Shown here piece by piece: positions 5,564 to 42,804 of a stretch of 44,813 nt of DNA. The DNA lies in assembly GCF_003207795.1 (NCBI RefSeq), contig NZ_NIRT01000024.1:1-44813 (forward strand). Reading direction: 5' to 3'. Position numbers and translations under genes: made by a program. The notes below the pieces were generated by a model that made no database searches, was not told where the DNA came from, and saw only the letters and a program-made list of their open reading frames with translations. Source of the DNA: Komagataeibacter nataicola (GTDB taxonomy: Bacteria; Pseudomonadota; Alphaproteobacteria; Acetobacterales; Acetobacteraceae). The number at the start of each line of letters is the position of its first letter. The stretch's first letter is position 1.

Positions 5564-5621
5564 AGAAGTTTCTGGTGAAGCTTTTTTCAAAAAGGCGGCA
5601 CCCCAAAACCTTTAAACTTCT
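5564..5621 (+). repeat. Convergent-gap palindromic repeat, copy A
   Basis: A 58-base copy of the dispersed repeat, bounded by AGAAGTTT at 5564-5571 and AAACTTCT at 5614-5621. Compared with the full copies it lacks one internal hairpin: the GAAGCTTTTTTCAAAAA part runs straight into GGCGGCACCCC. It starts 5 bases after the terminator. Its right arm overlaps the end of rdgB, so the final residues and TAA stop of RdgB lie inside it. Related copies are at 25171, 32675 and 42743. Confidence 0.75.
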
Positions 5622-6226
5622 GTTTTTGGCAGGCACGCCTCGCTGAACAGCGCAAAGGCCAGGCCCCGGTGGCTGATGGCGTTCTTTTCCGCATCCGTCA
5701 TGTCCGCAAAGCTGCGCGTGCCGGTGCCGGGGGCAAAAAGCGGGTCGTAGCCGTGGCCGTTGGCGCCATGCGGCGGCCAGATGACGTGGCCATCAATCCG
5801 GCCCTCGAAGGTTTCGGTGCGACCATCGGGCCAGGCCAGGCACAGCACCGAAATGAACCACGCGCTGCGGTCGGGGTTGTCGCCCATCTGCTCATGGATG
5901 CGGCGCATGGCGTCGGGGTAGTCCTTGCCGGGGCCAGCCCAGCGGGCCGAGAAGATGCCCGGCGCGCCATCCAGCGCCGCAACACAGAAGCCCGAATCAT
6001 CGGCCAGCGCGGGCAGGTTAGCGGCCTTGGCCGCTTCTAGGGCCTTGATGGCGGCATTGCCCGCGAAGCTGTCCGCCGTCTCGTCAGGCTCGGGCAGCGA
6101 CAGGTCGCCCGCGGAAATGACGCGGATGCCGTAGCCGCCCAGCAGGGCGGCGAATTCGGCAATCTTGCCCCTGTTATGCGTGGCAAGCACCAGCGTGTCG
6201 CCACGGTTGAGGTGGGGGATGGTCAT
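5612..6226 (-). CDS. rdgB: Non-canonical purine NTP pyrophosphatase RdgB/HAM1
   Basis: Hydrolyses dITP, XTP and related deaminated purine triphosphates to monophosphates, keeping them out of DNA and RNA. The 204-residue product shows the family blocks: [16 protein letters not shown] near the N-terminus, [23 protein letters not shown] and the C-terminal EKNAISHRG. The ATG at 6226 overlaps the TGA of rph by four bases, so the two are translationally coupled. The last codons and stop fall in repeat copy A, which suggests the repeat reshaped the gene's end. In many alphaproteobacteria a hemW-like gene follows; here it is absent. Confidence 0.97.
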
Positions 6227-6951
6227 GATGCAAGCGCCTCGTTCACGGTTACGGTCTGGATATGGAACAGCTCGGCGGTGCCGGTGCGGGCCAGGCGCAT
6301 GAGCGTGTTGAACTGTGCCTCGGTAAAGGGGTCTTTTTCCGCCGTGCCCTGAATTTCCACAATGCCGCCATCAGCAGTCAGCACGAAATTGGCGTCGGCG
6401 CTGGCATTGCTGTCCTCGGCGTAGTCAAGGTCGAGCACGGCGCCTGCCTCGGTCAGCCCGCAGGATATGGCCGCAACCTGCCCCTTGAGCGGAACAGCAG
6501 GCAGCACGCCGTCACGTACCAGCTTTTCCAGCGCCAGGCGCAGCGCGATCCACGCGCCGGTAATGGCCGCACACCGCGTGCCGCCATCGGCGTTCAGCAC
6601 ATCGCAATCCACCGTGATCGAGATCTCGCCCAGAGCCTTGAGGTCCACCACCGCGCGCAGCGCGCGGGCGATCAGGCGCTGGATTTCCTGCGTGCGGCCG
6701 CTCTGCTTGCCGCGGGCCGCCTCGCGCGGGCCACGGTTATGGGTGGCGCGTGGCAGCATGCCGTATTCCGCCGTGACCCAGCCCTGCCCCTTGCCGCGCA
6801 GGAAGGAGGGCACGCGTGGCTCCACGCTCGCCGCGCACAGCACCTCGGTGCCGCCCATGCGGATCAGGGCGGAGCCTTCCGCATGGCGGGCAAAGCCGGT
6901 CTGGATAAAGACAGGACGCAGCGCGTCGGGGGCGCGGCCGGATGGGCGCAT
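6223..6951 (-). CDS. rph: Ribonuclease PH
   Basis: A phosphate-dependent 3'-5' exoribonuclease that trims the 3' ends of tRNA and other RNA precursors. The 242-residue form from the ATG at 6951 ([14 protein letters not shown]) matches the usual length of about 238; the frame extends 15 codons further upstream without resembling the family. Visible motifs include the [17 protein letters not shown] block, [17 protein letters not shown] and [11 protein letters not shown]. It overlaps rdgB by ATGA and is divergent from hrcA, an arrangement common in alphaproteobacteria. The 133 bases between the rph and hrcA starts should carry promoters for both. Confidence 0.97.
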
Positions 6952-7036
6952 GGGGCAACTCCGCAAGGTGAGGGGGCGGCATAGCGCGCAATCCACCTCT
7001 ATTTCCAGTCCCGCGTGGGCAGGGACGGGTGGGATC

Positions 7037-7045
7037 TGTTATAAT
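7037..7045 (+). promoter_or_regulatory. Extended -10 promoter for hrcA
   Basis: A perfect extended -10 element, TGTTATAAT, lies about 40 bases before the hrcA start. No good -35 is seen at the right distance, which an extended -10 can tolerate. No CIRCE inverted repeat (TTAGCACTC-N9-GAGTGCTAA) is present, so self-repression by HrcA at this site is not supported. Confidence 0.55.
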
Positions 7046-7084
7046 GGGTGCTGGCGGATGACGATGTGCAAAGGAGGCATGGCG

Positions 7085-8158
7085 ATGGAAACCCGATCAC
7101 CGGTATCGCAGCCGGCCCTGCTGTCCGGGCTTGATGCGCGTTCCGCCGCGATCCTGCGCGAGATCGTGGAACAGTATGTGGAAACGGGCGAGCCGATGGG
7201 CTCGCGCACCCTGTCGCAGCGCCTGCCGCTTTCGCTCTCGCCGGCCACGATTCGCAACGTCATGGCCGACCTGACCGATGCGGGGCTGCTGTTCTCGCCC
7301 CATGCCTCGGCGGGCCGCCTGCCAACCGAAAAGGGCGTGCGGCTGTTTGTCGATGGCCTGCTACAGTTCGGCAGCCTGAGCGAGGAGGAGCGCGAGAGTA
7401 TTGCGGGCACGCTCGATGTGAAGGGCCGCTCGCTTGAGGACATGCTGGCGCAGGCATCGTCCATGCTCTCGGGCCTGTCCTCGGCGGCGGGGCTGGTCAT
7501 GGCGCCCAAGAGCGATGCAGGCACCATCAAGCATATCGAATTCGTGGCCCTTGGGCCGGGGCGCGCGCTGGTCATTCTGGTCAGCGCGGACGGGCAGGTG
7601 GAAAACCGCGTGATCGAGACACCGCCCGGCCTGCCGCCCTCGGCGCTGGTCGAGGCGGGCAACTATCTCAACGCCCACCTGTCGGGCCAGACGCTCGACC
7701 GCCTGCGCGAGACGGTCAGCACCGACATGACCGCCAACCGCAACGAACTCGACCACCTGACGGCAGGGGTTGTGGCCAGTGGCCTTGCCACATGGAGCGA
7801 TGCCGAGGAGCGCGGCGGCACGCTGTTCATCCGCGGGCAGGGTCGCCTGCTGGCCGATGTGACCGAGATCGAGCGGCTGACCACCATCCAGATGCTGTTC
7901 GAACGGCTGGAAACACAGGAGACCATGCTGCGCCTGCTCGACCTTGCGCGTGAATCCGAGGGGGTGCGCATCTTCATCGGGGCGGAAAGCGGGCTGTTCG
8001 GCATGGCGGGCATGTCGGTCGTGGTGGCGCCCGCGCGCACCGACAGCAACCGCATCGTGGGCGCGATTGGCGTGATCGGGCCGACCCGCATCAATTATGG
8101 CCGTATCATCCCGGTCGTGGATTACACCGCGCGCGTGATCGGCCGCCTGCTGGGCTGA
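7085..8158 (+). CDS. hrcA: Heat-inducible transcription repressor HrcA
   Basis: Represses chaperone operons such as groESL and dnaK by binding CIRCE operators; its activity depends on GroEL. The 357-residue product has the winged-helix N-terminus ([20 protein letters not shown] and [18 protein letters not shown]) with the usual [12 protein letters not shown] sequence, then the GAF-like and insertion domains. The start at 7085 is set by AAGGAGG at 7071-7077, seven bases upstream; an ATG at 7079 is too close. The open frame continues far upstream but without HrcA similarity. It is usually followed by grpE; here an aldo/keto reductase follows, so its targets must lie outside the window. Confidence 0.96.
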
Positions 8159-8219
8159 ACTGCCGCATCGGCATGCAACCCCGCCCCCCACGCACCCTTA
8201 TGGTGGGCAGGCACCAACC

Positions 8220-8248
8220 GCACGCCCGCCACACAGGCGCGGGCGTGC
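8220..8248 (+). terminator. Hairpin between hrcA and the reductase gene
   Basis: GCACGCCCG at 8220-8228 pairs with CGGGCGTGC at 8240-8248 around an 11-base loop. It ends 22 bases before the next start codon and has no T-tract. It could be a weak terminator of hrcA or a leader structure of the reductase mRNA. Confidence 0.4.
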
Positions 8249-8270
8249 CCATCGAGCAGGGAGTAAAGCC

Positions 8271-9158
8271 ATGTTCACGCCTGATGCCCGCCAGTCCGGG
8301 TCATTCATGATCGGGGGCGATATCGAGGTTACAAGGCTCGGCTTCGGAGCCATGCGCATTACGGGTCCGGGCATATGGGGTGAGCCGGCCGACCGGGCGA
8401 AGGCACTCGCCACGCTGAAGCGCCTGCCTGAACTCGGCATCAATTTTATCGATACCGCCGATGCCTATGGCCCCGAGGTGAGCGAGAACCTGATCCGCGA
8501 GGCGCTGCACCCCTATGAGGGCATGCTCATCGCCACCAAGGGCGGCCATACGCGCCACGGGCCGGATATCTGGAAGCCGGTCGGCAACCCCGATTACCTG
8601 CGCCAGTGCGTGCTGATGAGCCTGCGCAGGCTTGGCGTCGAGCGCATCGACCTGTGGCAGCTGCACCGCGTGGGGGCCGACTGCACGCCCGAGCGCCAGT
8701 TCGAGGCCATTGCCGCCATGCGCGCGCAGGGGCTGATCCGCCATGTTGGCCTTTCTGAGGTGACGGTGGAGATGATCGAGCGCGCACGGCTGTATTTCCC
8801 GGTCTCGACGGTCCAGAACCGCTTCAACCTCGTCAACCGCTTTTCGGAGGACGTGCTCGATTACTGCACGCGTGAGAATATCGGTTTCATTCCATGGGCG
8901 CCGCTTGCCGCGGGCGGGCTGACCAGGGGCGATACCGTGCTCACGCGCCTTGCGGGCGAGAAGGGCGTGCAGCCCGGCCAGATCGCGCTGGCGTGGCTGC
9001 TGCGCCGCGCGCCGGTCATGCTGCCCATTCCCGGCACGTCCAGCCCCGAGCACGTGGCCGATAATGCGGCGGCTGCCGCGATCGAGCTGAGCGATGAGGA
9101 ATTCCGCCAGCTTGATAATGATGGCCGGGCCGAATGGGCCAGCCGCAACGCAGGCTGA
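8271..9158 (+). CDS. Aldo/keto reductase
   Basis: An NAD(P)H-dependent oxidoreductase of the aldo/keto reductase TIM-barrel superfamily, which reduces aldehydes and ketones or oxidises alcohols. The catalytic tetrad is visible: D61 and Y66 in DTADAYG, K90 in IATKGG and H132 in QLHRV. The C-terminal part contains the cofactor-binding [14 protein letters not shown] motif. AGGGAG at 8258-8263 gives a well-spaced ribosome binding site for the ATG at 8271. At 295 residues it is typical of the short bacterial subfamilies. The substrate cannot be told from sequence. It lies between hrcA and the PBP1A gene with gaps of about 100 bases on each side, so it may be transcribed alone. Confidence 0.93.
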
Positions 9159-9257
9159 ACGGGCACGGGCGGATCGGGGGCGACGGCAGCGCGGGACAAT
9201 GCTAGACAGGGGCCTCACGACACAGAACAGCCCCTTTCTCTCCTTATTGGACACCGG

Positions 9258-11822
9258 ATGACGCTTGCTGACGGATCAGGCCGCGATGGCCGGATGGATG
9301 GACCCTCCCGCCCTGGTGGGGGTGGCCCGCGCCGCCCGCGCTACCGCATGGTGCGCTGGCTGGCGGGCACCACGCTGGCGGTGCTGCTGCTTGGCGGCGG
9401 CGGTGCGGGCATTGTGGGCTGGTGCGAATATGAGCGCCTGAGCGAGGGCCTGCCCACCGTCGATGGCCTGCGCACCTACCAGCCCCCCGTCATGAGCCGC
9501 CTGTATTCCGGTGATGACCAGGTGATGGCCGAGCTTGCCGCCGAGCGGCGCATCTTCGTGCCCTACAGCGCCATACCCGAGCGCGTGCGCAGCGCCTTCC
9601 TTGCCGCCGAGGACCAGAAATTCTTCAGCCATGGCGGCGTGGACCCGCTGGCCATCCTGCGTGCTGGCGTGACCGACATGATGATGCACGGCACCAAGCA
9701 CCGCCCCATCGGGGCCTCGACCATTACGCAGCAGGTCGCGCGCATCATGCTGCTGGGGTCGAATGCGGTGTCGATCGACCGCAAGATCAAGGAGGCGCTC
9801 CTGGCAATGCGCCTCGAGCAGACGCTGAGCAAGGAGCAGATCCTCGAGATCTACCTCAACGAGATCTATCTGGGCGAGGGCGCGTACGGCATTGGCGCCG
9901 CCGCCCAGACCTATTTCAACAAGCCGCTCGACCAGCTTGACAATGCCGAGGCCGCCTTCCTTGGCGCGCTGCCCAAATCGCCCACCAACTACAACCCGCA
10001 CCGCTACGTGCAGGCGGCGACCAACCGCCGCAACTGGGTGCTCGACCGCATGGCCGACCTCAGGGTGATTACGCCAGAGGAAGCGCGCGCCGCCCAGCTT
10101 GAGCCCCTCGTGCCCGCCAACTTCACCCGTCCCGGCCCCGTGCCCGGCTCGGAATGGTTTGCCGAGGAAGTGCGCCGCGAACTGATCGAGCGCTACGGCA
10201 TCGGCACCACCATGGAGGGCGGGCTTTCGGTCCATACCTCGCTGGATTCGCACCTGCAGCAGGTGGCCACCGGCGCATTGCGCGAGGGACTGCTGCGCTA
10301 TGATCGTGCCCATGGCGGCTGGCGGGGCGCGTTCGCGCATGTTGACGAGGCAGACGTGGCGGGCGACTGGGCCAATGCGCTGGTGCATGTTAGCGCACCC
10401 GCCGCCATGCTGGAGCAGTGGCGGATGGCGGTGGTGCTGTCCGCCACCACGGGTCGGGTGGGCTGGCTTGAGGGGCGCGATCCCGTCATGCCCCATACCG
10501 GCACGGTGCTGGCGCGTGACATGGCGTGGATGCGTACCGGCAAGGGCATGAAGACCGGCGACGTGGTGCTGGTCGAGCCCCAGGCCGATGGCAGCGGCGT
10601 TGCCATCCGCCAGGTGCCGCGCGTGGAAGGTGCCCTGGCCACCATCGATGTGCGCACCGGACGCGTGCTGGCGATGGTGGGGGGCTGGTCGTTCCGCGAA
10701 TCGCAGTTCAACCGCGCCATTCAGGCCGCGCGCCAGCCGGGGTCCTCGTTCAAGCCGTTTGTCTATCTGGCGGCGATGGAGCAGGGGATTTCGCCTTCGC
10801 AGAAATTCGATGATTCCCCGGTCAGCTACGGCGAGTGGCACCCCAACAACTACGAGAAGGATTTCTGGGGCCCCACCACCCTGCATGACGCGCTGCGCGA
10901 ATCGCGCAATCTCGTCACCATCCGCCTTGCCGCCCAGATCGGCATGAAGCCGGTGGCCGGGCTCGCACAGAGCCTTGGCCTCGTGCATTCCATGCCGCTG
11001 GTGCTGCCCGCGGCCCTCGGCGCGGTCGAGACCACCGTGATGAAGGAGGCTGGCGCCTACGCCACCATTGCCAACGGCGGCAGGCTGGTCACGCCCACCC
11101 TGATTGATGACATCAAGGACCGCAACGGCAACGTGGTGTGGCGGCCCGAAGGCGTGACGTTGCAGCCCGGCAGCACGCCGCAGGAGGGCCCGCAGGTGGC
11201 CGATACCCGCCCGCAGGTCGTCTCCGCCACCAGTGCGGCCCAGATCGTGGCCATGATGCAGGATGTGGTGCGCCGGGGCACGGGCGTGCGCGCGGGCGCG
11301 GGCATCGACCGGCCCATCGCGGGCAAGACCGGCACCAGCCAGGACTTCAATGATGCGTGGTTCGCGGGTTTCTCGCCCGATCTGGTCACGGTGGTGTGGA
11401 TCGGGTTCGACACGCCGCAGTCGCTGGGCAAGAACGAGACCGGCGGCGTGATCGCAGGCCCCATCTGGAACCAGGTGATGAAGGCGGCCCTCGCCACGCG
11501 TCCGCGCCTTGACTTCCGCGTGCCCGATGGCGTGCAGCTTGCACGCTACGATACCGGCATGGGAGTCGCAATCGATGCGTTCAAGCCCGGCCAGGTGCCC
11601 GGTGAGAGCGTGGATCTGGGCGCAGGCTCGGGCATGGCGCTGACGGCGGCGGATACGGGGGCCGAGAACATGCCCGATTCCGAGAATGACATGGCTACGA
11701 TGGCCGCGAGCCCCACCACCATGCCTGATGGCACGACATCGGCAGGCCACCCCTCAGCGCCTGCGGCGGCCCCCGCCACGCAGCCTTCCGGGGGTGACAT
11801 TGGCATGGGCGGGCTGTATTGA
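9258..11822 (+). CDS. mrcA: Penicillin-binding protein 1A (bifunctional class A PBP)
   Basis: Polymerises and cross-links peptidoglycan. After a short cytoplasmic Gly/Pro/Arg-rich tail there is one membrane anchor (about 34-55). The glycosyltransferase-51 domain follows, with the catalytic E118 in EDQKFFSHGGVDP and the GASTITQQ motif. The transpeptidase domain has the acyl-acceptor serine S496 in SSFK, SRN and KTGT at 690-693. A segment between the two domains (about 335-460) corresponds to the outer-membrane-facing loop region of PBP1A. The 854 residues fit PBP1A, and the last 80 or so are Ala/Pro/Thr-rich and probably disordered. The start is the ATG at 9258, with only a weak ribosome binding site. 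prfB follows after 68 bases. Confidence 0.96.
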   Translation: MTLADGSGRDGRMDGPSRPGGGGPRRPRYRMVRWLAGTTLAVLLLGGGGAGIVGWCEYERLSEGLPTVDGLRTYQPPVMSRLYSGDDQVMAELAAERRIFVPYSAIPERVRSAFLAAEDQKFFSHGGVDPLAILRAGVTDMMMHGTKHRPIGASTITQQVARIMLLGSNAVSIDRKIKEALLAMRLEQTLSKEQILEIYLNEIYLGEGAYGIGAAAQTYFNKPLDQLDNAEAAFLGALPKSPTNYNPHRYVQAATNRRNWVLDRMADLRVITPEEARAAQLEPLVPANFTRPGPVPGSEWFAEEVRRELIERYGIGTTMEGGLSVHTSLDSHLQQVATGALREGLLRYDRAHGGWRGAFAHVDEADVAGDWANALVHVSAPAAMLEQWRMAVVLSATTGRVGWLEGRDPVMPHTGTVLARDMAWMRTGKGMKTGDVVLVEPQADGSGVAIRQVPRVEGALATIDVRTGRVLAMVGGWSFRESQFNRAIQAARQPGSSFKPFVYLAAMEQGISPSQKFDDSPVSYGEWHPNNYEKDFWGPTTLHDALRESRNLVTIRLAAQIGMKPVAGLAQSLGLVHSMPLVLPAALGAVETTVMKEAGAYATIANGGRLVTPTLIDDIKDRNGNVVWRPEGVTLQPGSTPQEGPQVADTRPQVVSATSAAQIVAMMQDVVRRGTGVRAGAGIDRPIAGKTGTSQDFNDAWFAGFSPDLVTVVWIGFDTPQSLGKNETGGVIAGPIWNQVMKAALATRPRLDFRVPDGVQLARYDTGMGVAIDAFKPGQVPGESVDLGAGSGMALTAADTGAENMPDSENDMATMAASPTTMPDGTTSAGHPSAPAAAPATQPSGGDIGMGGLY

Positions 11823-11890
11823 CGCCCTTTATGGCCGGGCCTGAGCGTATATGGGCCCGCACTGTTGACCGTTGACCAAGGAGCAAGCCC

Positions 11891-13022
11891 ATGTCTGCCG
11901 AGACAGAGGCCCTGAACGACCAGATCAAGCAGTCGGTGGCGCTGCTGAGGAGGCATCTTTGACTGGGATGTCGCAATCGACCGCCTCGCGGAACTGAACA
12001 ACCGGGCCGAAGATCCCGACCTGTGGAACGATTCGGACGCAGCGCAGAAGCTCATGCGCGAGCGCACCATGCTGGCCAACCAGATCGAGGGCGTGCAGCG
12101 GCTTGAAGCCGATGTGAACGATACGATCGAACTCGTTGAACTGGCCGAGATGGAAGGCGACGAGTCCGTGGTGGCCGAGGCGCTTGGCACGCTGCGCGCC
12201 CTGGCCGAGGAAGCCAAGCGCCGCGAGACCGAGAGCCTGCTTTCGGGCGAGGCCGACAGCAATGACTGCTACCTCGAGGTCAATGCGGGCGCGGGCGGCA
12301 CCGAGGCGCAGGACTGGGCCGAGATGCTGCTGCGCATGTACACCCGCTGGGCCGAGCAGCATGGCTACAAGGTGACCATGATGGAAAGCTCGGAGGGCGA
12401 GCAGGCCGGGATCAAGTCCGCCACCATCCAGGTGACCGGTCCCAACGCCTATGGCTGGCTCAAGACCGAAGCGGGCGTGCACCGGCTGGTCCGCATCTCG
12501 CCGTTTGATGCGGCGGCACGGCGGCAGACCTCGTTTGCTTCCGTGTGGGTCTATCCGGTGGTGGATGACTCGATCGAGATCGAGATCAACGAGGCTGACC
12601 TGCGTGTCGATACCTTCCGTGCCTCGGGTGCTGGCGGCCAGCACGTCAACAAGACGGAATCGGCCATCCGCATCACGCACATCCCCACCGGAATCGTGGT
12701 GGCGTGCCAGACCGACCGCTCGCAGCACCGCAACCGCGCCACCGCCATGACCATGCTCAAGGCGCGGATGTACGAGCAGGAACTCCAGAAGCGCGAGGCC
12801 GCCGCCGCCCAGACCGAGGCCAGCAAGACCGATATCGGCTGGGGGCACCAGATCCGCTCCTACGTTCTGGCCCCTTACCAGCTGGTGAAGGACCTGCGCA
12901 CCAATGTCGAGAAAACCAACCCGGATGCGATTCTGGATGGTGACATCGATGACTTCATGGCCGCCGCCCTTGCCGCCCGCGTGGGGGCCACCCGCTCGGA
13001 AGCAAGTGCCCAGGCGCAGTAA
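11891..13022 (+). CDS. prfB: Peptide chain release factor 2, programmed +1 frameshift
   Basis: Recognises UGA and UAA stop codons and triggers peptide release. The ATG at 11891 (AAGGAG at 11878-11883) opens a 23-codon frame ending at an in-frame TGA at 11960-11962. The main frame continues at GAC 11961 and ends with TAA at 13022. The join gives 376 residues, close to the usual 365. The slippery CTTTGAC with an upstream AGGAGG is the classic RF2 autoregulatory site: low RF2 lets the ribosome pause at UGA and slip forward. The main frame carries the tripeptide anticodon SPF and the catalytic GGQ ([12 protein letters not shown]). A strong terminator follows. Confidence 0.97.
11948..11963 (+). 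promoter_or_regulatory. prfB programmed frameshift site
   Basis: An internal Shine-Dalgarno-like AGGAGG (11948-11953) lies three bases before CTT TGA C (11957-11963). This matches the known RF2 frameshift signal in spacing and sequence, so the in-frame TGA is regulatory rather than a sequencing error or mutation. Confidence 0.95.
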
Positions 13023-13051
13023 CGCCGCAACCAGGGCGTGCATGCAGGCAA

Positions 13052-13079
13052 CCCCGTGGCTCAGGCCACGGGGTTTTTT
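13052..13079 (+). terminator. Intrinsic terminator of prfB
   Basis: CCCCGTGGC at 13052-13060 pairs with GCCACGGGG at 13065-13073 around TCAG, followed by six T. A textbook rho-independent terminator 30 bases after the prfB stop. Confidence 0.95.
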
Positions 13080-13245
13080 CATGCCGTGGGCGTTGGGGCA
13101 TTGTTCTGCCAAGGGAAAATTGTTTCGAACCTGTGTCATATGATGCTTGACACAGCGCCCCCGAGCACGCCCAATTCCGCTTCGGGCAATTTGAACGGCA
13201 GGCGCCCGCGCGGGTTGCTGCGCAGGGGGGCTGGACAGGAGCGGC

Positions 13246-14615: not shown

Positions 14616-15872
14616 TTGAAAAACATCACATCCAAATCGCTGTTCCGGCTGCGTGGCCGCCTGCTGGCCGGGGTCATGATGGCGCTGCCGGTAGCAGGCA
14701 TCCTGCCCCTGCACGGCGCGCACGCGGCTGACCAGCTTGGCCAGAAGGTGGGCACGGCGCTGCAGAAGGCCCAGACCGACCTCGCCGCCAAGAAGTATCC
14801 GCAGGCCATGGCCGATGTGGACGCAGCCGACGCCGTAAGCGGCAAGACCGATTACGAATCCTACACCATTGCCCAGATGCGCGCCGCCGTGGCCGCCCAG
14901 TCGGGCAACGTGCCTGCCGCCATCTCGGCCTATGACACGCTGATCGCCTCCCCGCGCACGCCTGCCGCCACCAAGGAGCAGATGGCGCTGGCCGAAGGCA
15001 GCATGGCCTTTACCGCCAAGGATTACCCCACTGCCGTTACGGTGAGCGAAAAATACATCAAGGCGGGTGGCAAGAACCCGCAGATGCTGACCATCCTGAT
15101 CCAGGCCTACTATCTGCAGCATGACTTCGCCAACGCCGCGCGCGTGCAGCAGGGCCAGATCGATGCCACCATCAAGGCCGGTGGCAAGCCCACCGAGAAC
15201 CAGCTCCAGCTGCTCGCCGCCTGCCAGGCGCAGCTGAAGGACAACGCGGCGCTGACCAAGACCTATGTCATGCTCGCCACCTATTACCCCAAGCCCGATT
15301 ACTGGGCGCAGGTGGTCCATTCCGTGCTGAGCAACCCCAACATGGCGCCGGGCCTGCGGCTTGATATCGACCGCGTGCGCCTTGAGTCCGGGCTGGTCAA
15401 GACCTCGGCCGAGTATATGGACATTACCGAGCTGGCCATGCAGGCGGGCCTGCCCCAGCTTGCGCTCGACATCATCAACCAGGGCTATGCCAGCGGTGTG
15501 GTGGGGCATGATGCCTCTGCCCCGCGCAGCGAGAAGCTGAAGGCGATGGTGGCCCAGACTGCCGAGAGCACCAAGGCCAACCTCGATACGGCTGCCAGCC
15601 AGGCCGCAACCGGCAACGCCATGCTTACGGCAGGCTACAACTACGTGCTGAATGGGCAGGCCGACAAGGGTCTGGCGCTGATGCAGCAGGGCCTGGCCAA
15701 GGGGCCGACCGATATCAATATCGGTCGCCTGCATTATGGTCTGGCGCAGGCGGCAGCGGGCCAGAAGGCGGCTGCCATCACCACGTTCAACAGCGTGGAA
15801 GGCACCAATGGCGCGCGTGACATCGCGCAGTTCTGGGTGCTCAAGCTGAACGCGGCGCCTGCCGCACACTGA
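14616..15872 (+). CDS. Exported TPR-like repeat protein
   Basis: A 418-residue protein with a clear signal peptide (KSLFRLRGRLLAGVMMALPV then AHA-ADQ), so it is probably periplasmic. The rest is Ala/Gln/Lys-rich helical sequence in tetratricopeptide-like units such as AQTDLAAKKYPQAMADVDAA, AFTAKDYPTAVTVSEKYI and NYVLNGQADKGLALMQQGLA. No catalytic motif is seen. The start is a TTG at 14616 supported by GGAAGGA at 14601-14607. It follows exbB by 164 bases. Tetratricopeptide proteins occur beside ExbB-ExbD genes in some other bacteria, where they assist TonB systems, so a role as a periplasmic scaffold for this ExbB is a reasonable inference. No specific family was recognised. Confidence 0.75.
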   Translation: MKNITSKSLFRLRGRLLAGVMMALPVAGILPLHGAHAADQLGQKVGTALQKAQTDLAAKKYPQAMADVDAADAVSGKTDYESYTIAQMRAAVAAQSGNVPAAISAYDTLIASPRTPAATKEQMALAEGSMAFTAKDYPTAVTVSEKYIKAGGKNPQMLTILIQAYYLQHDFANAARVQQGQIDATIKAGGKPTENQLQLLAACQAQLKDNAALTKTYVMLATYYPKPDYWAQVVHSVLSNPNMAPGLRLDIDRVRLESGLVKTSAEYMDITELAMQAGLPQLALDIINQGYASGVVGHDASAPRSEKLKAMVAQTAESTKANLDTAASQAATGNAMLTAGYNYVLNGQADKGLALMQQGLAKGPTDINIGRLHYGLAQAAAGQKAAAITTFNSVEGTNGARDIAQFWVLKLNAAPAAH

Positions 15873-15873: not shown

Positions 15874-15931
15874 AAAAACAGGCGGGCGCCGCCTTTTCAG
15901 AACAGGGCGGCGCCCAGAAATTTCTGTTTTT
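15874..15931. terminator. Large bidirectional terminator hairpin
   Basis: AAAAACAG at 15874-15881 pairs with CTGTTTTT at 15924-15931. Inside, GGGCGCCGCC at 15884-15893 pairs with GGCGGCGCCC at 15906-15915. The A-rich left and T-rich right edges give an intrinsic terminator directly after the repeat-protein stop. Confidence 0.85.
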
Positions 15932-19574: not shown

Positions 19575-20288
19575 ATGCGGATTGTGGTCATGGACGGGGC
19601 TGCGACCGGTGCGCAGGCGCAGGCCCTGATCGCCTGCCTGGCGGCTGATGCGGCGGGCGCGCCTGTTCTCCTTGCCACCCGTATCGCCACCGGGCGTGGC
19701 GCGGCCGAGCAGTTTCCGCTGCTGGCCACCGAACTGTTCACGCACTGTGGCTGGGGCCATGGCATGCCCGAACTGGCGGGCGTGGTCGTGGGGCCGGGAT
19801 CGTTCACGGGGCTGCGGGCCTCGCTGGCGTTTGCGCACGGGTTGGCGGCGGGGGCGGGCTGCATGGTGGTGGGTGTTACCGGAGGCGAGGTCATGGCCCC
19901 GGCCCTGCGCGCGGCCGCAACCCCGCTGGGAGCAACCGCCCTGCATTGCACCATGGCCCGCCGGGGCCGCGTGTTTATTGAAACGCCGGGCACGCACTCA
20001 GCCTTGGGGCAGGTCCGCGCCTGCATGCTTGATGCACTTGACCTGCCGCCGGGGCCCCTGCTGCTGGCCGGTAACGGCGCGCAGGCGGTAGCAGAGGCTG
20101 CCGCCGCCCGGCGGGATGACATGCACCTGCTGCCCGATGCACCACCCGACCCGCAGGCCATTGCCGCCGCCGCCCTGCTGCGCGTGCAGGGCGATCTGCC
20201 GCCACGCGTGGCCCAGCCGCTTTATGTCGATGCGCCGGAAGCCCGGCTGCCCGCCGCGGGCCTGCGCCCGGCCCCCGTCACCCCATGA
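19575..20288 (+). CDS. tsaB: tRNA threonylcarbamoyladenosine biosynthesis protein TsaB
   Basis: A non-catalytic partner of TsaD in making t6A37 on tRNAs that read ANN codons. The 237-residue product contains the family motif VVVGPGSFTGLRASLAFAHGLA and ends with the usual AQPLYVDAPEARLP stretch. The N-terminus (MRIVVMDGAA) is more divergent than typical TsaB, which normally has a DTS/DTA motif there. It starts 3 bases after the RutE-like gene and overlaps rimI by ATGA, so translation of tsaB and rimI is coupled. TsaB next to RimI is a widespread pairing in bacteria. Confidence 0.93.
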   Translation: MRIVVMDGAATGAQAQALIACLAADAAGAPVLLATRIATGRGAAEQFPLLATELFTHCGWGHGMPELAGVVVGPGSFTGLRASLAFAHGLAAGAGCMVVGVTGGEVMAPALRAAATPLGATALHCTMARRGRVFIETPGTHSALGQVRACMLDALDLPPGPLLLAGNGAQAVAEAAAARRDDMHLLPDAPPDPQAIAAAALLRVQGDLPPRVAQPLYVDAPEARLPAAGLRPAPVTP

Positions 20289-20728
20289 CAGACAATGCCG
20301 TGCCCGCAGGGCAGGCTGCGCTGCTGGCCCGCATCCACGCGGCGGCCTTCACGCCAGTGCACCGGTGGGATGCGCAGGCCATGACGGCCCTGCTGGCCAT
20401 GCCGGGCGTGTTCGTGCTGCTTGCGCAGGGTGAGGGTATTCCGCCGGTTTCGGGCTTCATCATGGCCCGTGTCCTGCTTGATGAAGCCGAGATCCTGACC
20501 TTTGCCGTGGACCCCGCCTGGCAGGGGCAGGGCATTGGCCGCGCCCTGCTCGGGCGGTGCCTGGATGAGGCCGCGCGCGCGGGGGTGGCCAGCATGTTCC
20601 TTGAGGTGGCGCGCGATAACGTGGCCGCGCTAGGGCTTTATCACGCGGCGGGATTCGTGGTGGTGGGGGTGAGGCGGCGCTATTACCCCGATGGCGCCGA
20701 TGCCTGTGTCATGAAGCGGGAGATTTGA
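20285..20728 (+). CDS. rimI: Ribosomal protein S18-alanine N-acetyltransferase RimI
   Basis: A GNAT-fold acetyltransferase expected to acetylate the N-terminal alanine of ribosomal protein S18. The 147 residues match RimI length. The acetyl-CoA loop is GQGIGRALL, preceded by the TFAVDPAWQ strand, and the C-terminal GLYHAAGFVVVGVRRRYYPDGADA block is typical. It overlaps tsaB by four bases at the start. Its last 20 bases overlap the end of the converging tusA-like gene, an unusually tight 3' arrangement. Confidence 0.93.
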   Translation: MTDNAVPAGQAALLARIHAAAFTPVHRWDAQAMTALLAMPGVFVLLAQGEGIPPVSGFIMARVLLDEAEILTFAVDPAWQGQGIGRALLGRCLDEAARAGVASMFLEVARDNVAALGLYHAAGFVVVGVRRRYYPDGADACVMKREI

Positions 20729-20957
20729 GCACGGTCAGCTGGTGCGTTATGCCATCTGTTTCTGTCTGTATTTCTTCCACGACATGACCAAGCAGCTTCA
20801 GACTGCGAGAAACATTGTCCAGCGGGCCTGCTCCCCGCAGGCGGACAAGCAGTTTTCCCCCGGCTGGAAGTCTGTCAAGTGCCAGACGGGTGTGTACGAA
20901 AGTCATGGGGCACACTTCATGGGTGATATCCAGTTTCGCCATCTCTATATCAGACAT
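20709..20957 (-). CDS. TusA-family sulfur carrier protein
   Basis: An 82-residue protein of the TusA/SirA fold. It carries the single conserved cysteine, C16, in the motif EVCPMTFVHTRLAL, followed by the LLVRLRGAGPLDNVSRSLKLLGHVV region. TusA proteins carry persulfide sulfur between enzymes, for example for tRNA 2-thiouridine formation. This one belongs to the broader family; which sulfur pathway it serves is not clear. It starts at the ATG 20957, divergent from mucR, and ends inside the rimI coding region with a 20-base overlap. Confidence 0.85.
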   Translation of the reverse strand: MSDIEMAKLDITHEVCPMTFVHTRLALDRLPAGGKLLVRLRGAGPLDNVSRSLKLLGHVVEEIQTETDGITHQLTVLKSPAS

Positions 20958-25156: not shown

Positions 25157-25170
25157 GCCTGTCATTATCA

Positions 25171-25258
25171 GAGCGTTTCCGGGTGTCGCTTTTTTTTCAA
25201 AAAGGCGGCGTCTTCTGAAGCGTTATAAAAAAGCTTCACCAAAAACTTTTTTATAACG
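25171..25258 (-). repeat. Convergent-gap palindromic repeat, copy B
   Basis: About 88 bases, in minus orientation relative to copies A and D. It keeps both halves of the full element: the GGGTGTCGC-T8-CAAAAAGGCGGCG hairpin and the TTCTGAAGC ... GCTTCACC half. The right side also has a perfect 13-bp inverted repeat, from CGTTATAAAAAAG at 25221-25233 to CTTTTTTATAACG at 25246-25258. It fills the gap between the helix-turn-helix regulator and the tyrosine phosphatase, where no other terminator is seen. Confidence 0.8.
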
Positions 25259-25275
25259 ACTGGCGCGCCCCACTT

Positions 25276-32668: not shown

Positions 32669-32674
32669 AGTCAT

Positions 32675-32755
32675 AAAAGTTTTCGGGTGCCGCCTTTTTT
32701 TAAAAAGGTGGCGTTCTTCTGAAGCTTTTGGAAAACAGCGTCACCAGAAACTTTT
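32675..32755 (-). repeat. Convergent-gap palindromic repeat, copy C
   Basis: An 81-base copy, minus orientation, and the clearest full-length example. The outer ends AAAAGTTTTCGGGTG (32675-32689) and CACCAGAAACTTTT (32742-32755) are complementary with few mismatches. Inside is a hairpin GCCGCC-T7-AAAAA-GGTGGC (32689-32711) and a second half TTCTGAAGCTTTTGGAAAACAG. It starts 6 bases after the zwf stop and ends 8 bases before a bidirectional terminator. Confidence 0.8.
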
Positions 32756-32763
32756 CACTGAAC

Positions 32764-32798
32764 AAAAAAAGCCCGCGCCATCACGGCGCGGGCTTTTT
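32764..32798. terminator. Bidirectional intrinsic terminator
   Basis: GCCCGCGCC at 32771-32779 pairs with GGCGCGGGC at 32785-32793, flanked by seven A on the left and five T on the right. It can serve zwf and the exported-protein gene on the other strand. Confidence 0.9.
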
Positions 32799-32818
32799 CA
32801 TGCCTGTGGGGCAGGAGG

Positions 32819-34944: not shown

Positions 34945-35064
34945 CACAAAACCTCCATCTGATGGGGTTTGAGTTCACCAGATGGAGAGAACCCCTGTCA
35001 TGACACAGTTTGGCGAGATCGGGGCCTTGCTGGGGCTTTTTTAACGGACTATCGCCAAAATATC

Positions 35065-36264
35065 ATGAATACGGATATCGCCCCCGCCCGCCTGTCCGCT
35101 GCGGCGCAGCCCGCAGGCACCGGCCCCTTCGCCGCCTATGAGGCCCGCGTGGCTTCAGGCCGTCTTGATCGCGACCCCGAGCAGGAAAAAGCCGCCCGCA
35201 GGCTCGACCAGCTCTGGCGCGAACTGCGCGACTACCACCCGGTGGTCCAGTCCGCGCCACCCGCCAGTGGCTGGCTTGGCGGGCTGAAGGCGCGGCTTGG
35301 CCTTGCGGGCCGGGCGGCGCAGGGGCAGCCCCGGCCGCGCGGCGTGTACATGGTGGGGCAGGTGGGGCGTGGAAAAACCATGCTGATGGACCTGTTCTTC
35401 AGCCTCGCCCCGGTCGAGCACAAGCGCCGGGTGCATTTCCACCGCTTCATGCAGGATGTGCACCAGCGCCTGCATGACATGAAGGAAGCGGATCCCGACC
35501 TGTCCGATCCCATCCCCCCGCTTGCCCGCCAGATCGCACAGGAGGCGTGGCTGCTGTGCTTTGATGAATTCCAGGTCAATGACATCGCGGACGCCATGAT
35601 CCTTGGCCGCCTGTTCGATTACCTGTTCGCCGATGGCGTGGTGGTGGTGGCCACATCCAACACAAAGCCCGAGGACCTGTTTCAGAACCGCCCCGGCGCG
35701 GATGCGTTCAAGCCGTTCATCGCCGCGATCCTCAAGGAGGTTGATACCGTCATCCTCGATTCCCCGCGTGATTACCGCCGGGGCAACGCGCCGGGCATGC
35801 AGACATGGATCATCCCCGTCGATGCGGCGGCGACAAGGCAGCTCGACTCGATCTTTGCCAGACTGGCCGGTGGCGCGCCGGTGGTGCCCGTAACCCTCGA
35901 CATCATGGGGCGCCCGCTGAAGGTGGCGCGCGCGGCAGGCCCGGTGGCGCGGTTCAGCTTTGCCGAGCTGTGCGGCAGGCCGCTCGGCGCGGGTGATTAC
36001 CTGGCACTGGCCACGCGCTTCCCCAACCTCGTGCTCGATGGCGTGCCGCGCATGGGGCCGGATAATTTTGACGAGGCCCGCCGGTTTATCGTGCTGATCG
36101 ACACGCTGTACGAACAGAACGTCAAGCTGTTCGCCTCGGCCGAGGACCAGCCCGATGCCATCTATGCCAGGGGGCAGGGGGCGACCGCGTTCGAGCGCAC
36201 GGCCTCGCGGCTCGAGGAGATGCAGAGCGCGGCCTATATGCAGCTGCCGCACCTCAACGCATGA
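35065..36264 (+). CDS. zapE: Cell division protein ZapE (AFG1-family ATPase)
   Basis: An AAA-like ATPase of the ZapE/AFG1 family, known in E. coli to act at the division septum by affecting FtsZ polymers, and in mitochondria as Afg1. The 399-residue product has Walker A GQVGRGKT at 98-105, Walker B in WLLCFDEFQVND and the downstream VATSNTKPEDLF. I chose the ATG at 35065 (MNTDIAPA); the frame is open further upstream without similarity. The ribosome binding site is weak. It is followed by a 346-base gap before sucA. In many alphaproteobacteria zapE lies near TCA-cycle genes, as here. Confidence 0.94.
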   Translation: MNTDIAPARLSAAAQPAGTGPFAAYEARVASGRLDRDPEQEKAARRLDQLWRELRDYHPVVQSAPPASGWLGGLKARLGLAGRAAQGQPRPRGVYMVGQVGRGKTMLMDLFFSLAPVEHKRRVHFHRFMQDVHQRLHDMKEADPDLSDPIPPLARQIAQEAWLLCFDEFQVNDIADAMILGRLFDYLFADGVVVVATSNTKPEDLFQNRPGADAFKPFIAAILKEVDTVILDSPRDYRRGNAPGMQTWIIPVDAAATRQLDSIFARLAGGAPVVPVTLDIMGRPLKVARAAGPVARFSFAELCGRPLGAGDYLALATRFPNLVLDGVPRMGPDNFDEARRFIVLIDTLYEQNVKLFASAEDQPDAIYARGQGATAFERTASRLEEMQSAAYMQLPHLNA

Positions 36265-36610
36265 TGGACGCAAACGGCAGAAGGGTCACGCCATCGTGAC
36301 GGTTATGGCGGTGGTGTGACTGCCGGGGCGGTAGGCAAGCCGTGCGGTCTTTGCTTGGGTATGGGCAAGTTCGCATCAGCCGGGATCCGTGCCGCGAAAA
36401 GCGATGTTTTGCAGCGCCATGCCCCGCCATTACGGGTCAGGCACGAAAATGTCAGTATGCGCGGCAAGCAGACCTGATCCTGATGAAAGATGGCGGCATC
36501 CCGGCAAGGGTGCGGCTAGGGTAGCGATACAAATCGGGCCGGCTGCCGTTTCAGGCCGGATCCGGAAATAGCGCGGCCACAAAGGCCGCCAGCGAGGAGA
36601 TGTCTTCAAT
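36265..36610. other. zapE-sucA intergenic region
   Basis: A 346-base gap with no convincing gene. Short frames exist but none looks conserved. It probably contains the sucA promoter and leader. A short hairpin (GCGGCC at 36573-36578 with GGCCGC at 36584-36589) lies just before the sucA ribosome binding site GAGGAGA (36594-36600). Confidence 0.5.
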
Positions 36611-39484
<2,874 letters not shown>

Positions 39485-39605
39485 TACGGACCGGGTAGAA
39501 CATAACAACACGGGGGCGGCCTGCCGGTCGTACCCCCAAATAACGAATGGGGCCGCCCCGCAGCCTGGTTGGGGCAGGGGCGGCCAAGGGATTGGGAAAC
39601 AGGAA

Positions 39606-40865
39606 ATGTCCGCCGAGATCAAGGTACCGACACTGGGTGAAAGCGTAACCACGGCAACCATCGCCAAGTGGCTCAAGCAGCCGGGTGACGCCGTGAACGA
39701 GGATGACCCGTTGGTGGAACTGGAAACCGACAAGGTCAGCGTGGAAGTGCCCGCCCCGCAGGCTGGCGTGCTTGGCCCGCTGCTGGTGCCCGAAGGCGCT
39801 GAAGTGGAAGTGGGCACCGTGCTCTCCACCATCGAGGCCGGTAGTGGCGCCGCCCCCAAGGCCGCTGCCACTCCCGCGCCAAAGAAAGAAGCCGCCCCTG
39901 GTGGCGTGCAGGCCCAGCCCGCAACCCCGGGCCCGGTGGCGCGCCCCGCCACGCCGCCGTCCGATGTCGCGGCTCAGGGTGCGGCCAACGTGGCTTTCCC
40001 CGCCGCGCGCAAGGCCATGGCCGAGCAGGGTATAACGCCCGCCCAGGTCGGCACCGGCACGGGCAAGGACGGGCGCATCACCAAAGGTGACGTGCAGAGC
40101 TTCCTCGCGCAGCCGCGCGCGGCTGCCCCCGCTGCCGCCCCGCGCCCGCCGCGTCAGGACGACCCGCGTGAAGAGCGCGTGAAGATGACGCGCCTGCGCC
40201 GTACCATCGCCCGCCGCCTGAAGGATGCGCAGAACACCGCAGCCCTGCTCACCACCTTCAATGAGGTGGACATGTCGGCGGTGATGCAGATGCGCGCCGA
40301 ATACAAGGAACTGTTCATCAAGAAGCATAACGGCGTGAAGCTGGGCTTCATGTCCATCTTCAGCCGCGCGGTCATTGCAGCGCTGCAGGAATTCCCGGCC
40401 ATCAACGCCGAGATCGACGGCGATGACGTGATCTACCGCGAGTTCGTCAACCTCGGCATTGCCGTGGGCGGCCCCAACGGGCTGGTCGTGCCCGTGATCC
40501 GCGATGCCGACAAGATGGGCTTCGCCCAGATCGAGAGCGCGATCGCAGGCTTTGGCAAGAAGGCGCGCGAAGGCACGCTCAAGATCGATGAGCTGTCGGG
40601 TGGCACGTTCTCGATCACCAATGGCGGCATCTATGGCTCGCTCATGTCCACGCCCATCATCAACGCGCCACAGTCGGCCATCCTTGGCATGCATGCCATC
40701 CAGGAGCGCCCGATGGCGGTGAACGGGCAGGTGGTGATCCGCCCGATGATGTATATCGCGCTGACCTACGACCACCGGATCGTGGATGGCAAGGAGGCGG
40801 TCAGCTTCCTTGTGCGCGTCAAGCAGAACGTGGAAGATCCGCGCCGTCTGCTGCTGCAGGTCTGA
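39606..40865 (+). CDS. sucB: Dihydrolipoyl succinyltransferase (E2 of OGDH)
   Basis: The core of the 2-oxoglutarate dehydrogenase complex, transferring the succinyl group to CoA. The 419-residue product has one lipoyl domain at 1-76 with the lipoyl-lysine K43 in [11 protein letters not shown], an Ala/Pro-rich linker, a peripheral-subunit-binding domain ([11 protein letters not shown]...[10 protein letters not shown], about 130-170) and the catalytic acyltransferase domain with HRIVDGKEA near the C-terminus. It starts 121 bases after sucA. The lipoyl domain is nearly the same as the one fused to the following E3 gene. Confidence 0.98.
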
Positions 40866-40873
40866 TGCCTGCC

Positions 40874-40898
40874 GGGGCCGCGCCTGTGTCGCGGCCCC
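40874..40898 (+). promoter_or_regulatory. Hairpin between sucB and lpd
   Basis: GGGGCCGCG at 40874-40882 pairs perfectly with CGCGGCCCC at 40890-40898 around a 7-base loop. No T-tract follows, so partial termination or mRNA processing between sucB and lpd is more likely than full termination. Confidence 0.5.
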
Positions 40899-40934
40899 TA
40901 CGCGCAACCGCATAGCAAGCAGGACTGACAAGAC

Positions 40935-42674
40935 ATGACAATCGATATCAAGGTGCCCACGCTGGGCGAGAGCGTGACCACGGCCACGGTCGCCAAATGG
41001 CTGAAACAGCCCGGTGATGCGGTCAATGCCGATGACCCGATCGCCGAGCTGGAAACCGACAAGGTCAGCGTGGAAGTACCCGCCCCGCAGGCGGGCGTGC
41101 TCGGTGCCCATGCCGTCAAGGAAGGTGATGAGGTCGAGGTCGGCACAGTGCTGACCACCCTTACGCCGGGTGCTGGCGGCGCCAAGGCGGCTCCGGCCCC
41201 CGCAGCCCAGCCCGCGCAGGCGGCTGCCCCTGCCGCGTCCGCTCCGGCGGCCCCCGCGTCCAGCCCCGCGGCCGAGGCGCCAAGCGAGACGGATTACGAC
41301 GTGATCGTGATCGGCGCGGGCCCTGGCGGTTACGTGTGCGCCATTCGCGCAGCCCAGCTTGGCTTCAGGGTGGCATGCGTGGAAAAGCGCGCGACCCTTG
41401 GGGGCACCTGCCTCAATGTGGGCTGTATTCCGTCCAAGGCGCTGTTGCAGCAGTCAGAGAACTTCCATGCCGCCAAGGATGAATATGGCGAGATGGGCAT
41501 CATCATCGACAGCGTGAAGCTGGATCTGGCGAAGATGATGGCGCGCAAGCAGTCCGTGGTCGATGCGAACGTGAAGGGCGTGGAGTTCCTGTTCAAGAAG
41601 AACAAGGTCACCTGGCTCAAGGGCACCGGCAGGATCGAGGGTACGGGGCGCATCACGGTTGATGGCAAGCCGGTTACGGCAAAGCACATCGTCATTGCCA
41701 GCGGCAGCGACAGCGCGGGCCTGCCGGGCGTGGACGTGGATGAAAAGCAGATCGTCACCTCCACCGGCGCGCTTGAGCTTTCCGCCGTTCCCAAGAAGAT
41801 GGTGGTGATTGGCGGTGGCGTGATCGGCCTTGAGCTGGGCAGCGTGTGGCACCGCCTCGGCGCGGATGTGACGGTGATCGAATATCTCGACCGTCTGGTT
41901 CCCGGCACCGATAACGAAGTGGCCAAGACCTTCCAGCGCATCCTGACCAGGCAGGGCCTCAAGATGAAGCTCGGCCACAAGGTGACCAAGGCCGAGAAAA
42001 GCCCCAAGGGCGTGACCCTGAGCGTGGAACCCGCCAAGGGTGGCACGGCCGAGACGCTGGAAGCCGATGTGGTACTGCTGGCCATTGGCCGCACGGCAGC
42101 CAGCAAGGGCTTTGGGCTGGAGGAAGCCGGCATTGAGCTCGACAGGCGTGGCCGCATCGTGACTGATGCGCATTACGCCACCAGCGTGCCCGGCATCTAC
42201 GCCATTGGCGATGTGATCGCTGGCCCCATGCTGGCCCACAAGGCCGAGGAAGAAGGCGTTGCCATAGCCGAGCTGCTGGCAGGCCAGGCAGGCCATGTAA
42301 ATTATGGCGCGATCCCGGCCGTGGTCTATACGTGGCCGGAAGTGGCGACCGTGGGCAAGACCGAAGAAAACCTGAAGGAAGAGGGCGTTGCCTACAAGGT
42401 TGGCAAATTCCCCTTCACCGCCAATGGCCGCGCGCGCGCCATCGGCATGACCGACGGGTTTGTGAAGGTTCTGGCCGATGCCACCACCGACCAGGTGCTC
42501 GGCGTGCACATTATCGGCCCGATGGCGGGCGAACTGATTGCCGAATGCACCATGGCGATCGAGTTTGGCGCCTCGTCGGAAGATATTGCCCGCACCTGCC
42601 ACGCCCACCCCACGTTGAGCGAGGCGGTGAAGGAAGCAGCCCTCGATGTGGACAAGCGCGCCATCCATATCTGA
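40935..42674 (+). CDS. lpd: Dihydrolipoyl dehydrogenase with N-terminal lipoyl domain
   Basis: The E3 flavoprotein that reoxidises dihydrolipoamide with NAD. The 579-residue product is longer than the usual 470. The extra part is a lipoyl domain at 1-76 with lysine K43 in [11 protein letters not shown], an Ala/Pro-rich linker to about 115, then the E3 core. The core has FAD motif [20 protein letters not shown], redox cysteines C159 and C164 in [13 protein letters not shown], a second NAD-binding [13 protein letters not shown] and the C-terminal [13 protein letters not shown] with the active histidine. The domain differs from SucB's at only 14 of 76 positions by my count, pointing to duplication. 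It is the last gene of the operon and ends at a strong terminator. Confidence 0.97.
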
Positions 42675-42690
42675 CCCGGCGCAACAACAC

Positions 42691-42730
42691 AAAACCCACC
42701 CGGCAACAGAGCTGCCGGGTGGGTTTTTTT
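42691..42730 (+). terminator. Intrinsic terminator of the suc operon
   Basis: AAAACCCACCCGGCA at 42691-42705 pairs perfectly with TGCCGGGTGGGTTTT at 42713-42727 around a 7-base loop, ending in seven T. A very strong rho-independent terminator 17 bases after the lpd stop. Confidence 0.95.
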
Positions 42731-42742
42731 ATGAATGACAAA

Positions 42743-42804
42743 AGAAGTTTGTGGTGAAGCTGTTTTCAAAAAGCTTCACAAGTCCGCCGTCTTTCTGAAA
42801 AAGT
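42743..42804 (+). repeat. Convergent-gap palindromic repeat, copy D
   Basis: About 62 bases, same orientation as copy A, starting 13 bases after the suc terminator. It has AGAAGTTT, then a perfect hairpin GTGAAGCT (42754-42761) with AGCTTCAC (42772-42779), then a diverged remainder with CCGCCGTCTTTCTGAAAAAG. The outer right arm is missing, so the copy looks truncated. It ends 15 bases before the converging cyclic-di-GMP gene. Confidence 0.75.

Follow-up and report, generated by a model that had tools for sequence, protein, structure and literature searches.

A dispersed palindromic repeat at gene ends in Komagataeibacter and its possible role at transcript 3' ends

The window and its copies

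The stretch of DNA analyzed here, referred to below as the window, comprises positions 1-44813 of contig C27 of the Komagataeibacter nataicola genome G000 (3.67 Mb in 105 contigs, with a G+C content of 64% in the sampled parts), and it carries five copies of an 84-base palindromic repeat found at the ends of genes, which is the subject of this report (Table 1). Four of the copies had been named in the original prediction, and all four are present and can be aligned with one another, the profile E-values (in a search of 2.03 Mb) being 3.5e-21 at 32674-32755, 9e-20 at 25171-25250, 7.7e-13 at 42742-42809, and 2e-6 at 5564-5613; copies 1 and 4 are incomplete. The fifth copy, a truncated one, lies in a same-direction (++) gap, 12 bases past the stop at 15872, which contradicts the earlier claim that no same-direction gap holds a copy. 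At the orthologous gap of this fifth copy, the genomes G003 and G018 have full copies and G004 has one shortened by deletion; full-length copies likewise occupy the site of copy 1 in G015, G007, G003, and G018. The overlap of the convergent pair that the original prediction called rimI and tusA was seen again, in open reading frames at 20285-20728 (+) and 20709-20957 (-).

Table 1. Copies of the repeat and adjoining features in the window
Feature	Position	Strand	Basis or remark
Canonical-looking intrinsic terminator directly before copy 1	5528..5558	+	Read from sequence; similar hairpin in congeners
Copy 1, shortened by an internal deletion, with outer arms AGAAGTTT/AAACTTCT	5563..5613	+	Sequence and profile match
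Fifth copy, truncated: hairpin 2 and 3' arm	15885..15925	+	Profile E=0.003
Left outer arm CCTGTCATTAT beside copy 2, 9 of 11 pairs with 25253-25263	25158..25168	+	Sequence; similar arms in G018
Full-length copy 2 in reverse orientation, in a 120-bp gap	25169..25252	-	Sequence and profile match
Right outer arm ATAACGACTGG beside copy 2	25253..25263	+	Read from sequence
Copy 3, full length, reverse orientation	32673..32757	-	Between G6PD gene (stop 32668) and LTXXQ-family gene (ends 32819)
Canonical-looking bidirectional terminator adjoining copy 3	32764..32798	.	Read from sequence
Canonical-looking terminator ahead of copy 4, also conserved in congeners	42696..42731	+	Read from sequence and congeners
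Copy 4, without 3' outer arm	42741..42812	+	Orientation inverse to that in G007, G014, G003, and G018; left flank near-identical

Sequence and fold of the repeat unit

Read side by side, the copies define a unit of 84 bases, consisting of an outer arm, a hairpin of the form GAAGC..GCTTC, a linker, a second hairpin of the form GCCGCC..GGCGGC, and the other outer arm. The best copy reads AUAAAAGUUUUUGG-UGAAGCUUUUUUCAAAAAGCUUCG-AAGAA-CGCCGCCUUUUUGAAAAAAGGCGGC-A-CCCAAAAACUUUUAU, a near-palindrome of about 84 bp in which the outer stem encloses the two hairpins, and the edges of the element are A-rich on the 5' side and T-rich on the 3' side. The consensus of 33 copies is 84 nt long, with CGTC confined to a few hairpin 2 variants, and an outer stem of at least 8 pairs was obtained in 240 of 312 folds. 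It has to be noted that RNAalifold found no more than 9 pairs on a plain MAFFT alignment, and that a three-helix structure supplied by hand was used in its place.

Searches with Rfam 15 gave no matches to known RNA families at gathering score in the window, and at the elements of five element-bearing loci they returned only miRNA families with scores below gathering. A terC RNA (RF03067) was recognized at 55.8 bits, above its gathering score, at L361 1649-1711 (+) of genome G160; one of the element's relatives lies some 73 bp away. A phage origin was rejected, since a comparison of one copy with 50,697 phage records gave no match.

Abundance and placement relative to stop codons

The repeat family is real and well beyond chance: its 18-base core pattern, with at most two mismatches, occurs at 190 sites in the 3.67-Mb genome versus one site for the pattern read backwards, and the profile gave no matches at E<=0.01 on 2.03 Mb of reversed sequence. 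A first count, which covered 845 kb of G000 (the window and stretches picked by contig, with gene calls from our own script and E<=1e-3), yielded 84 copies, 41 of them in convergent, 40 in same-direction, and 2 in divergent gaps, with 1 at a contig end. The second count, made with a second profile on 2.03 Mb from four closely related genomes, yielded 258 copies (150 convergent, 95 same-direction, 10 divergent, and 3 located within a gene or at the end of a contig), counts that are not independent, as the four are close species sharing many copies. The cores number 53-81 per genome, found in a fraction of each genome, and the same-direction share ranges from 28 to 48%. Two copies or partial copies may also adjoin in a single gap, as at C35 60075-60243 and C49 65902-66118 of G000. 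Further copies are thus plentiful, with many in same-direction gaps and few in divergent ones, so that neither an even spread over these two gap types nor a lack of more copies, the outcomes that the original prediction had named as contrary to it, was obtained; the near-absence from divergent gaps that had been described for the window is seen at large, and the 95 same-direction copies are incompatible with a restriction to gaps between converging genes.

Among gaps of 60-400 bp, a copy is present in 127 of 157 convergent gaps (34/50, 31/36, 30/37, and 32/34 by genome), in 74 of 545 same-direction gaps (29/229, 12/103, 15/109, and 18/104), and in 6 of 196 divergent gaps (1/77, 1/38, 2/42, and 2/39); convergent gaps shorter than 60 bp are almost all empty, with 1 of 32 holding a copy in G000. 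The same-direction copies are concentrated directly behind the upstream gene, 71 of the 95 lying at most 30 bp past its stop (27/38, 12/15, 14/18, and 18/24 by genome), and in the first count 72.5% of such copies were near the stop versus 21% expected, the maximum of 5000 random placements within gaps being 42.5%. When density is expressed as copies per kb of the space left after excluding the elements and, for same-direction gaps, also the 100 bp before the next start, it falls 17-fold, from 4.53/kb at distances of up to 30 bp from the stop (57 copies) to 0.27/kb beyond (22 copies), with 16 more same-direction copies lying at most 100 bp ahead of the next start. The corresponding densities are 2.73/kb in convergent gaps (150 copies) and 0.14/kb in divergent gaps (10 copies). 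The rule is that copies begin just past stop codons, which is stricter than "convergent only." The same-direction space away from stops and starts is almost empty, and therefore pure tolerance, as in the suggestion of an element "tolerated only there," is insufficient to account for the placement.

A copy is found between 6 bp before and 30 bp after a clear stop in 261 of 1728 genes, some copies (TAAAAG) even providing the stop codon itself, and TAA is the stop in 42.5% of these 261 versus 25.2% of the 1728. Such proximity would agree with a stop-proximal hairpin of the 3' untranslated region that tunes translation or stability, by ribosome stalling or by blocking 3' exonucleases, with no role in termination; E. 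coli REPs (repetitive extragenic palindromes) near stops are reported to stall ribosomes (PMC12306157). This explanation is nevertheless distinctly improbable, as it leaves the convergent excess (127/157 versus 74/545) unexplained, though some same-direction gaps are intra-operon.

The high occupancy of convergent gaps, together with the palindromic, A/T-tract-rich sequence and the inverted copies seen at the same place in relatives, also brings to mind a DNA-level element, i.e. a cruciform or A/T tract that would bind gyrase, IHF, or another nucleoid protein and relieve the positive supercoils of convergent transcription, by analogy with the BIMEs (bacterial interspersed mosaic elements) of E. 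coli, for which REPs offer a precedent (PMC1525189). It appears improbable, since the same-direction copies cling to the upstream stop instead of spreading over the gap, and since a linear binding site needs no branched shape that recurs across genera (see below).

Spread in Acetobacteraceae and conservation of shape

All 19 Komagataeibacter genomes carry the family, with 39 to at least 75 matches each; of the other 41 genomes of the same draw two had matches (4 and 1), and in an even sample of 150 Acetobacteraceae genomes 22 had matches, from 15 of 102 genera, Komagataeibacter included. A 43-base pattern is carried by Komagataeibacter, Novacetimonas, and Gluconacetobacter entanii. One Novacetimonas genome also has numerous matches, their counted number being a minimum. 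Beyond these closest genera the letters are different, e.g. AAAGTTTTTTGGTTCTTTTTTTCAAAAAAGAAC..., and the three-helix layout is the same.

The retention of shape was evaluated on a cross-genus set of 34 copies, 29 of them from the more distant genera, with one orientation per copy and an alignment fitted to the structure model, so that the counts lean toward structure. In this set 94.5% of the cells are paired, two-sided changes occur in 26 of 34 pairs, and the cells with two-sided changes number 177 versus a shuffle mean of 52 (maximum 74), or 141 versus 38 for the 29 distant copies alone; swaps such as GAAGC/GCTTC, GGCCCC/GGGGCC, and TTCTT/AAGAA can be seen by eye. Also by eye, the outer stem at three loci of other genera, L344 (G185), L345 (G062), and L346 (G160), is lengthened by arms that are copy-specific yet complementary, e.g. 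CAATTAACAAAAG/CTTTTGTTAATTG. With a gene model trained on 1273 Komagataeibacter genes, in which genes were barred if they covered more than 30 bases of the element, 25 of the 29 other-genera loci could be classified (L366, which has a partial copy only, being among the four that could not), and 20 are same-direction, 5 convergent, and none divergent, with 19 of the 25 lying no further than 34 bp from an upstream stop.

Between orthologous copies from three species, divergence amounts to 9.6% in the stems, 18.8% in loops and linkers, and 23% in 25-nt intergenic flanks, and fourfold sites diverge by 16-17%. In 86 orthologous pairs of full copies, double changes within a base pair were counted 49 times versus 22 expected, 29 of them still paired, and one-sided changes kept the pairing in 168 cases and broke it in 180.

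A minority form with mobile-element ends

A minority of the copies are the cores of a miniature inverted-repeat transposable element (MITE) of about 160 bp, with 15-bp inverted ends GAGRCTGTTTGAAAA, unit lengths of 152-165 bp, and no gene call between the ends. Exact end repeats number 21 in four genomes (9 in G000, 8 in G003, 1 in G004, and 3 in G018), and all of them adjoin a core, which makes no more than 18 distinct units. Both ends are present in six units, five of these with TTA or TAA on both sides and one with CAA/TAA, and two of the five represent one plasmid site, common to a conjugative Novacetimonas hansenii plasmid. End repeats adjoin a TAA stop at L372, L383, and L387, and G018 and G004 lack a one-ended insertion that G003 has directly past a terminator-like T-run. 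A transposase partner was not recognized at 25 end-repeat loci (exact ends, four to six genomes, neighboring genes not typed), and the gene near one end repeat in L394 was not accepted as such because it lies outside the repeat. A 99.4% MITE match on the N. hansenii plasmid was rejected as an independent transposition, its flanks being the plasmid site of G000 and G018. In L395, from N. hansenii plasmid p1, an IS630-family transposase gene stands beside the MITE; it is not found in L380, the left flank and the MITE being common to both. Six plasmid sites of the repeat were recorded, namely two convergent, three same-direction (two of which are one site in two strains), and one unannotated.

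Turnover at orthologous gaps

The four convergent gaps of the window that hold copies 1 to 4 (gaps 1 to 4) were followed through the 19 genomes of the genus, and the element was found at gap 1 in 15 of 18 resolved cases, at gap 2 in 3 of 19, at gap 3 in 13 of 19, and at gap 4 in 16 of 18 resolved cases. At gap 2, 16 of the 19 genomes have a gap of 10-19 bp with no element versus the 120 bp of the window. At gap 1 the element precedes a terminator-like hairpin in G002, G013, and G008 and follows it in others, and its orientation varies. At gap 4, G004 shares the inverted state of the window's copy (Table 1), and G007 has a MITE arm and an end repeat on the right that G014, G003, and G018 do not have, their core being intact, from which a loss of the arm in these three genomes is inferred. 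A clearer inversion is seen between G004 113165 and a truncated copy at G003 103001, where the flanks match on both sides.

The 86 orthologous pairs, all in the same orientation, have a median identity of 0.89 (flanks 0.915, random pairs 0.86). Another 22 pairs are in opposite orientation, with both copies full in 5; several of these 22 have no common immediate flanks, and independent insertion is possible at several of them. An automatic search for empty sites across the four genomes returned 299 comparisons with the same orientation, 44 with the opposite one, and 27 with "none," in which pairs are possibly counted twice, and the 12 "none" cases viewed were mainly remnants or rearranged gaps, not clean empty sites. 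The earlier suggestion of a small mobile element is borne out in that presence, side, and orientation vary between species at the window's gaps and some copies are MITE cores with TTA/TAA duplications.

The most direct reading of such mobility would be a selfish MITE, whose target preference for TTA/TAA, including TAA stops, and the purifying selection acting on its insertions would make the whole pattern, the core having no host function. The TTA/TAA flanks of five of the six two-ended copies (with the plasmid site counted twice among them), the three end repeats adjoining a TAA stop, the commonness of TAA at neighboring stops, the resemblance of gap 2 to a gain relative to the 16 short gaps, and the presence of one MITE on a conjugative plasmid all fit this model. 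We consider it rather unlikely, as exact end repeats are few relative to the 53-81 cores per partial genome, as same-direction core edges mostly lie 3-25 bp past stops, where MITE arms of about 40 bp would not fit without arm loss, and as the stems are conserved relative to fourfold sites and the core shape recurs in genera with other letters.

A possible role at transcript 3' ends

The explanation that we favor, by a narrow balance of the sequence evidence, is that the repeat is a dispersed, orientation-independent transcript 3'-end element occupying a REP-like niche without being a REP. In this model the element would act in the transcript of any gene that is read into it, or in those of both genes of a converging pair, as a 3'-end structure limiting read-through and/or shielding the 3' end. 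The copies would have spread by transposition in the MITE form and by other means, and those adjoining stops would be kept for their 3'-end function as the MITE arms decay. This reading is favored jointly by the placement of the copies behind stops, by the requirement of converging genes for an end on each strand, by the conservation of the stems, and by the variation in orientation; convergent pairs are proposed to hold the element most often because an end is needed on both strands, and inversion is proposed to be harmless because the structure is orientation-independent. A role at transcript 3' ends, which the original prediction had put forward, has support from position (71/95 and 127/157), from stem conservation, and from the two-sided changes across genera.

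As for termination in the strict sense, the exit of the element is T-rich on both strands (about 8-9/16 versus 3.6 in the background), and most element-bearing gaps have no other strict terminator (90 of 131 convergent and 74 of 79 same-direction gaps). The terminators that had been reported beside three of the window's copies are visible by eye within about 10 bases, but adjacency of this kind is not a general feature, as a strict terminator outside the element was found in only 41 of the 131 element-bearing convergent gaps of the four genomes; the strict scan of 5400-5800 called no terminator at all, the 5528..5558 hairpin included.

A number of observations weigh against a 3'-end function. 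When full copies were scanned strand by strand, only 24 of 302 scans (1 forward, 23 reverse) gave a strict intrinsic terminator, and in same-direction gaps the exit T counts of the sense and antisense strands are 8.1 versus 7.9 (23 forward copies) and 8.4 versus 9.7 (37 reverse copies), so that there is no sign of strand-specific selection on the U-tract. Tails that read CTTTCATCC or CTTTTATCC and are followed by few U are frequent in other genera, and strict terminators are only slightly commoner in gaps that are free of the element (10/26 versus 41/131 for convergent and 51/466 versus 5/79 for same-direction gaps). The rare strict-scan calls, the missing sense-strand T bias, and the weak U-tails elsewhere speak against a plain intrinsic terminator; our best inference is a 3'-end function in the broad sense, of which termination proper would be one form only.

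Further such points concern structure and placement. For the 33 Komagataeibacter copies, overall covariation under the three-helix structure was not above shuffles, and the complementarity of outer arms within a locus was not above that of permuted partners, for which reason locus-specific outer arms were rejected in this genus. Template switching or palindrome-templated repair could be the source of both the stem conservation and the paired changes. The element is missing from some congeners at the same gap, and the TAA enrichment at neighboring stops together with the MITE insertions at TAA allows for a target preference. The placement in other genera depends on the gene model and is weaker evidence, an earlier model trained on those loci alone having assigned 13 same-direction, 8 divergent, 4 inside genes, and 2 convergent, with 2 unclassified.

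A more far-reaching version, which we regard as tentative and which the sequence comparisons make possible without making it probable, is that of a portable gene-end module in Acetobacteraceae, conserved in structure and indifferent to orientation, in which a dispersed palindrome, partly carried by a MITE and with no REP transposase in the genomes tested, would be the main 3'-end signal of converging genes, such that a mobile element would supply and rearrange part of the terminator repertoire.

Relation to known repeat systems

After some forty years of work on REPs, it is still debated whether such gene-end palindromes are functional or just tolerated. The repeat described here resembles REPs and BIMEs in its many palindromic copies, which are extragenic and mostly downstream of genes (see the 258 copies above). 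Unlike REPs, which are GTAG- or CGTC-tagged hairpins of 20-40 bp linked to RAYT (REP-associated tyrosine transposase) genes, it is an 84-bp three-helix unit whose consensus has neither tag. A search for a RAYT/Y1_Tnp (PF01797) gene was positive in 5 of 14 control genomes and in none of the 19 Komagataeibacter genomes, and with neither transposase nor tag an identity with RAYT-REP systems was rejected. In PMC3733652 and PMC1525189, REP and BIME palindromes are described as extragenic and chiefly downstream of genes, between unidirectional or convergent open reading frames, and the former source gives CGTC repeats as missing from Acetobacteraceae. The element may fill the place of the CGTC REPs in this family.

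Its minority form of 152-165 bp, with the 15-bp inverted ends and the TTA/TAA duplications, is like bacterial MITEs, with the difference that most copies lack such ends and that the core shape is wider-spread than the MITE. Bacterial MITEs with TNA duplications go by the group name IS5/IS1031-type. With bidirectional intrinsic terminators the repeat shares the stop-proximal position between convergent genes and the A-rich 5' and T-rich 3' sides, and it differs from them in its branched stem, which mostly fails the strict scan, and in belonging to one repeated mobile sequence family. With intrastrand triplex or PIT motifs it has in common that these are abundant folded intergenic repeats; the motif studied in PMC4666352, a G/C-rich triplex whose stems measure 9 nt, is reported there to lack terminator activity, a description that would set it apart from the three-helix unit.

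In the open-licence PMC literature, as judged from titles and abstract openings, no description of the repeat was found for Komagataeibacter or Acetobacteraceae. It presents a case in which the REP niche is filled without a REP transposase, the shape is kept across genera by paired changes, and the MITE form is recognizable in places. The 19 genomes of one genus moreover amount to a natural experiment, with orthologous convergent gaps in which the element points one way or the other, lies before or behind a conserved terminator, is truncated, or is missing, and the findings are relevant to annotation and to the choice of terminators in bacterial-cellulose producers.

Another repeat in the window

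A separate direct repeat of 177 bases with 81% identity was noted in the window at 39599-39775 and 40928-41104, at the starts of two neighboring genes, the second of which has a lipoyl domain by Pfam.

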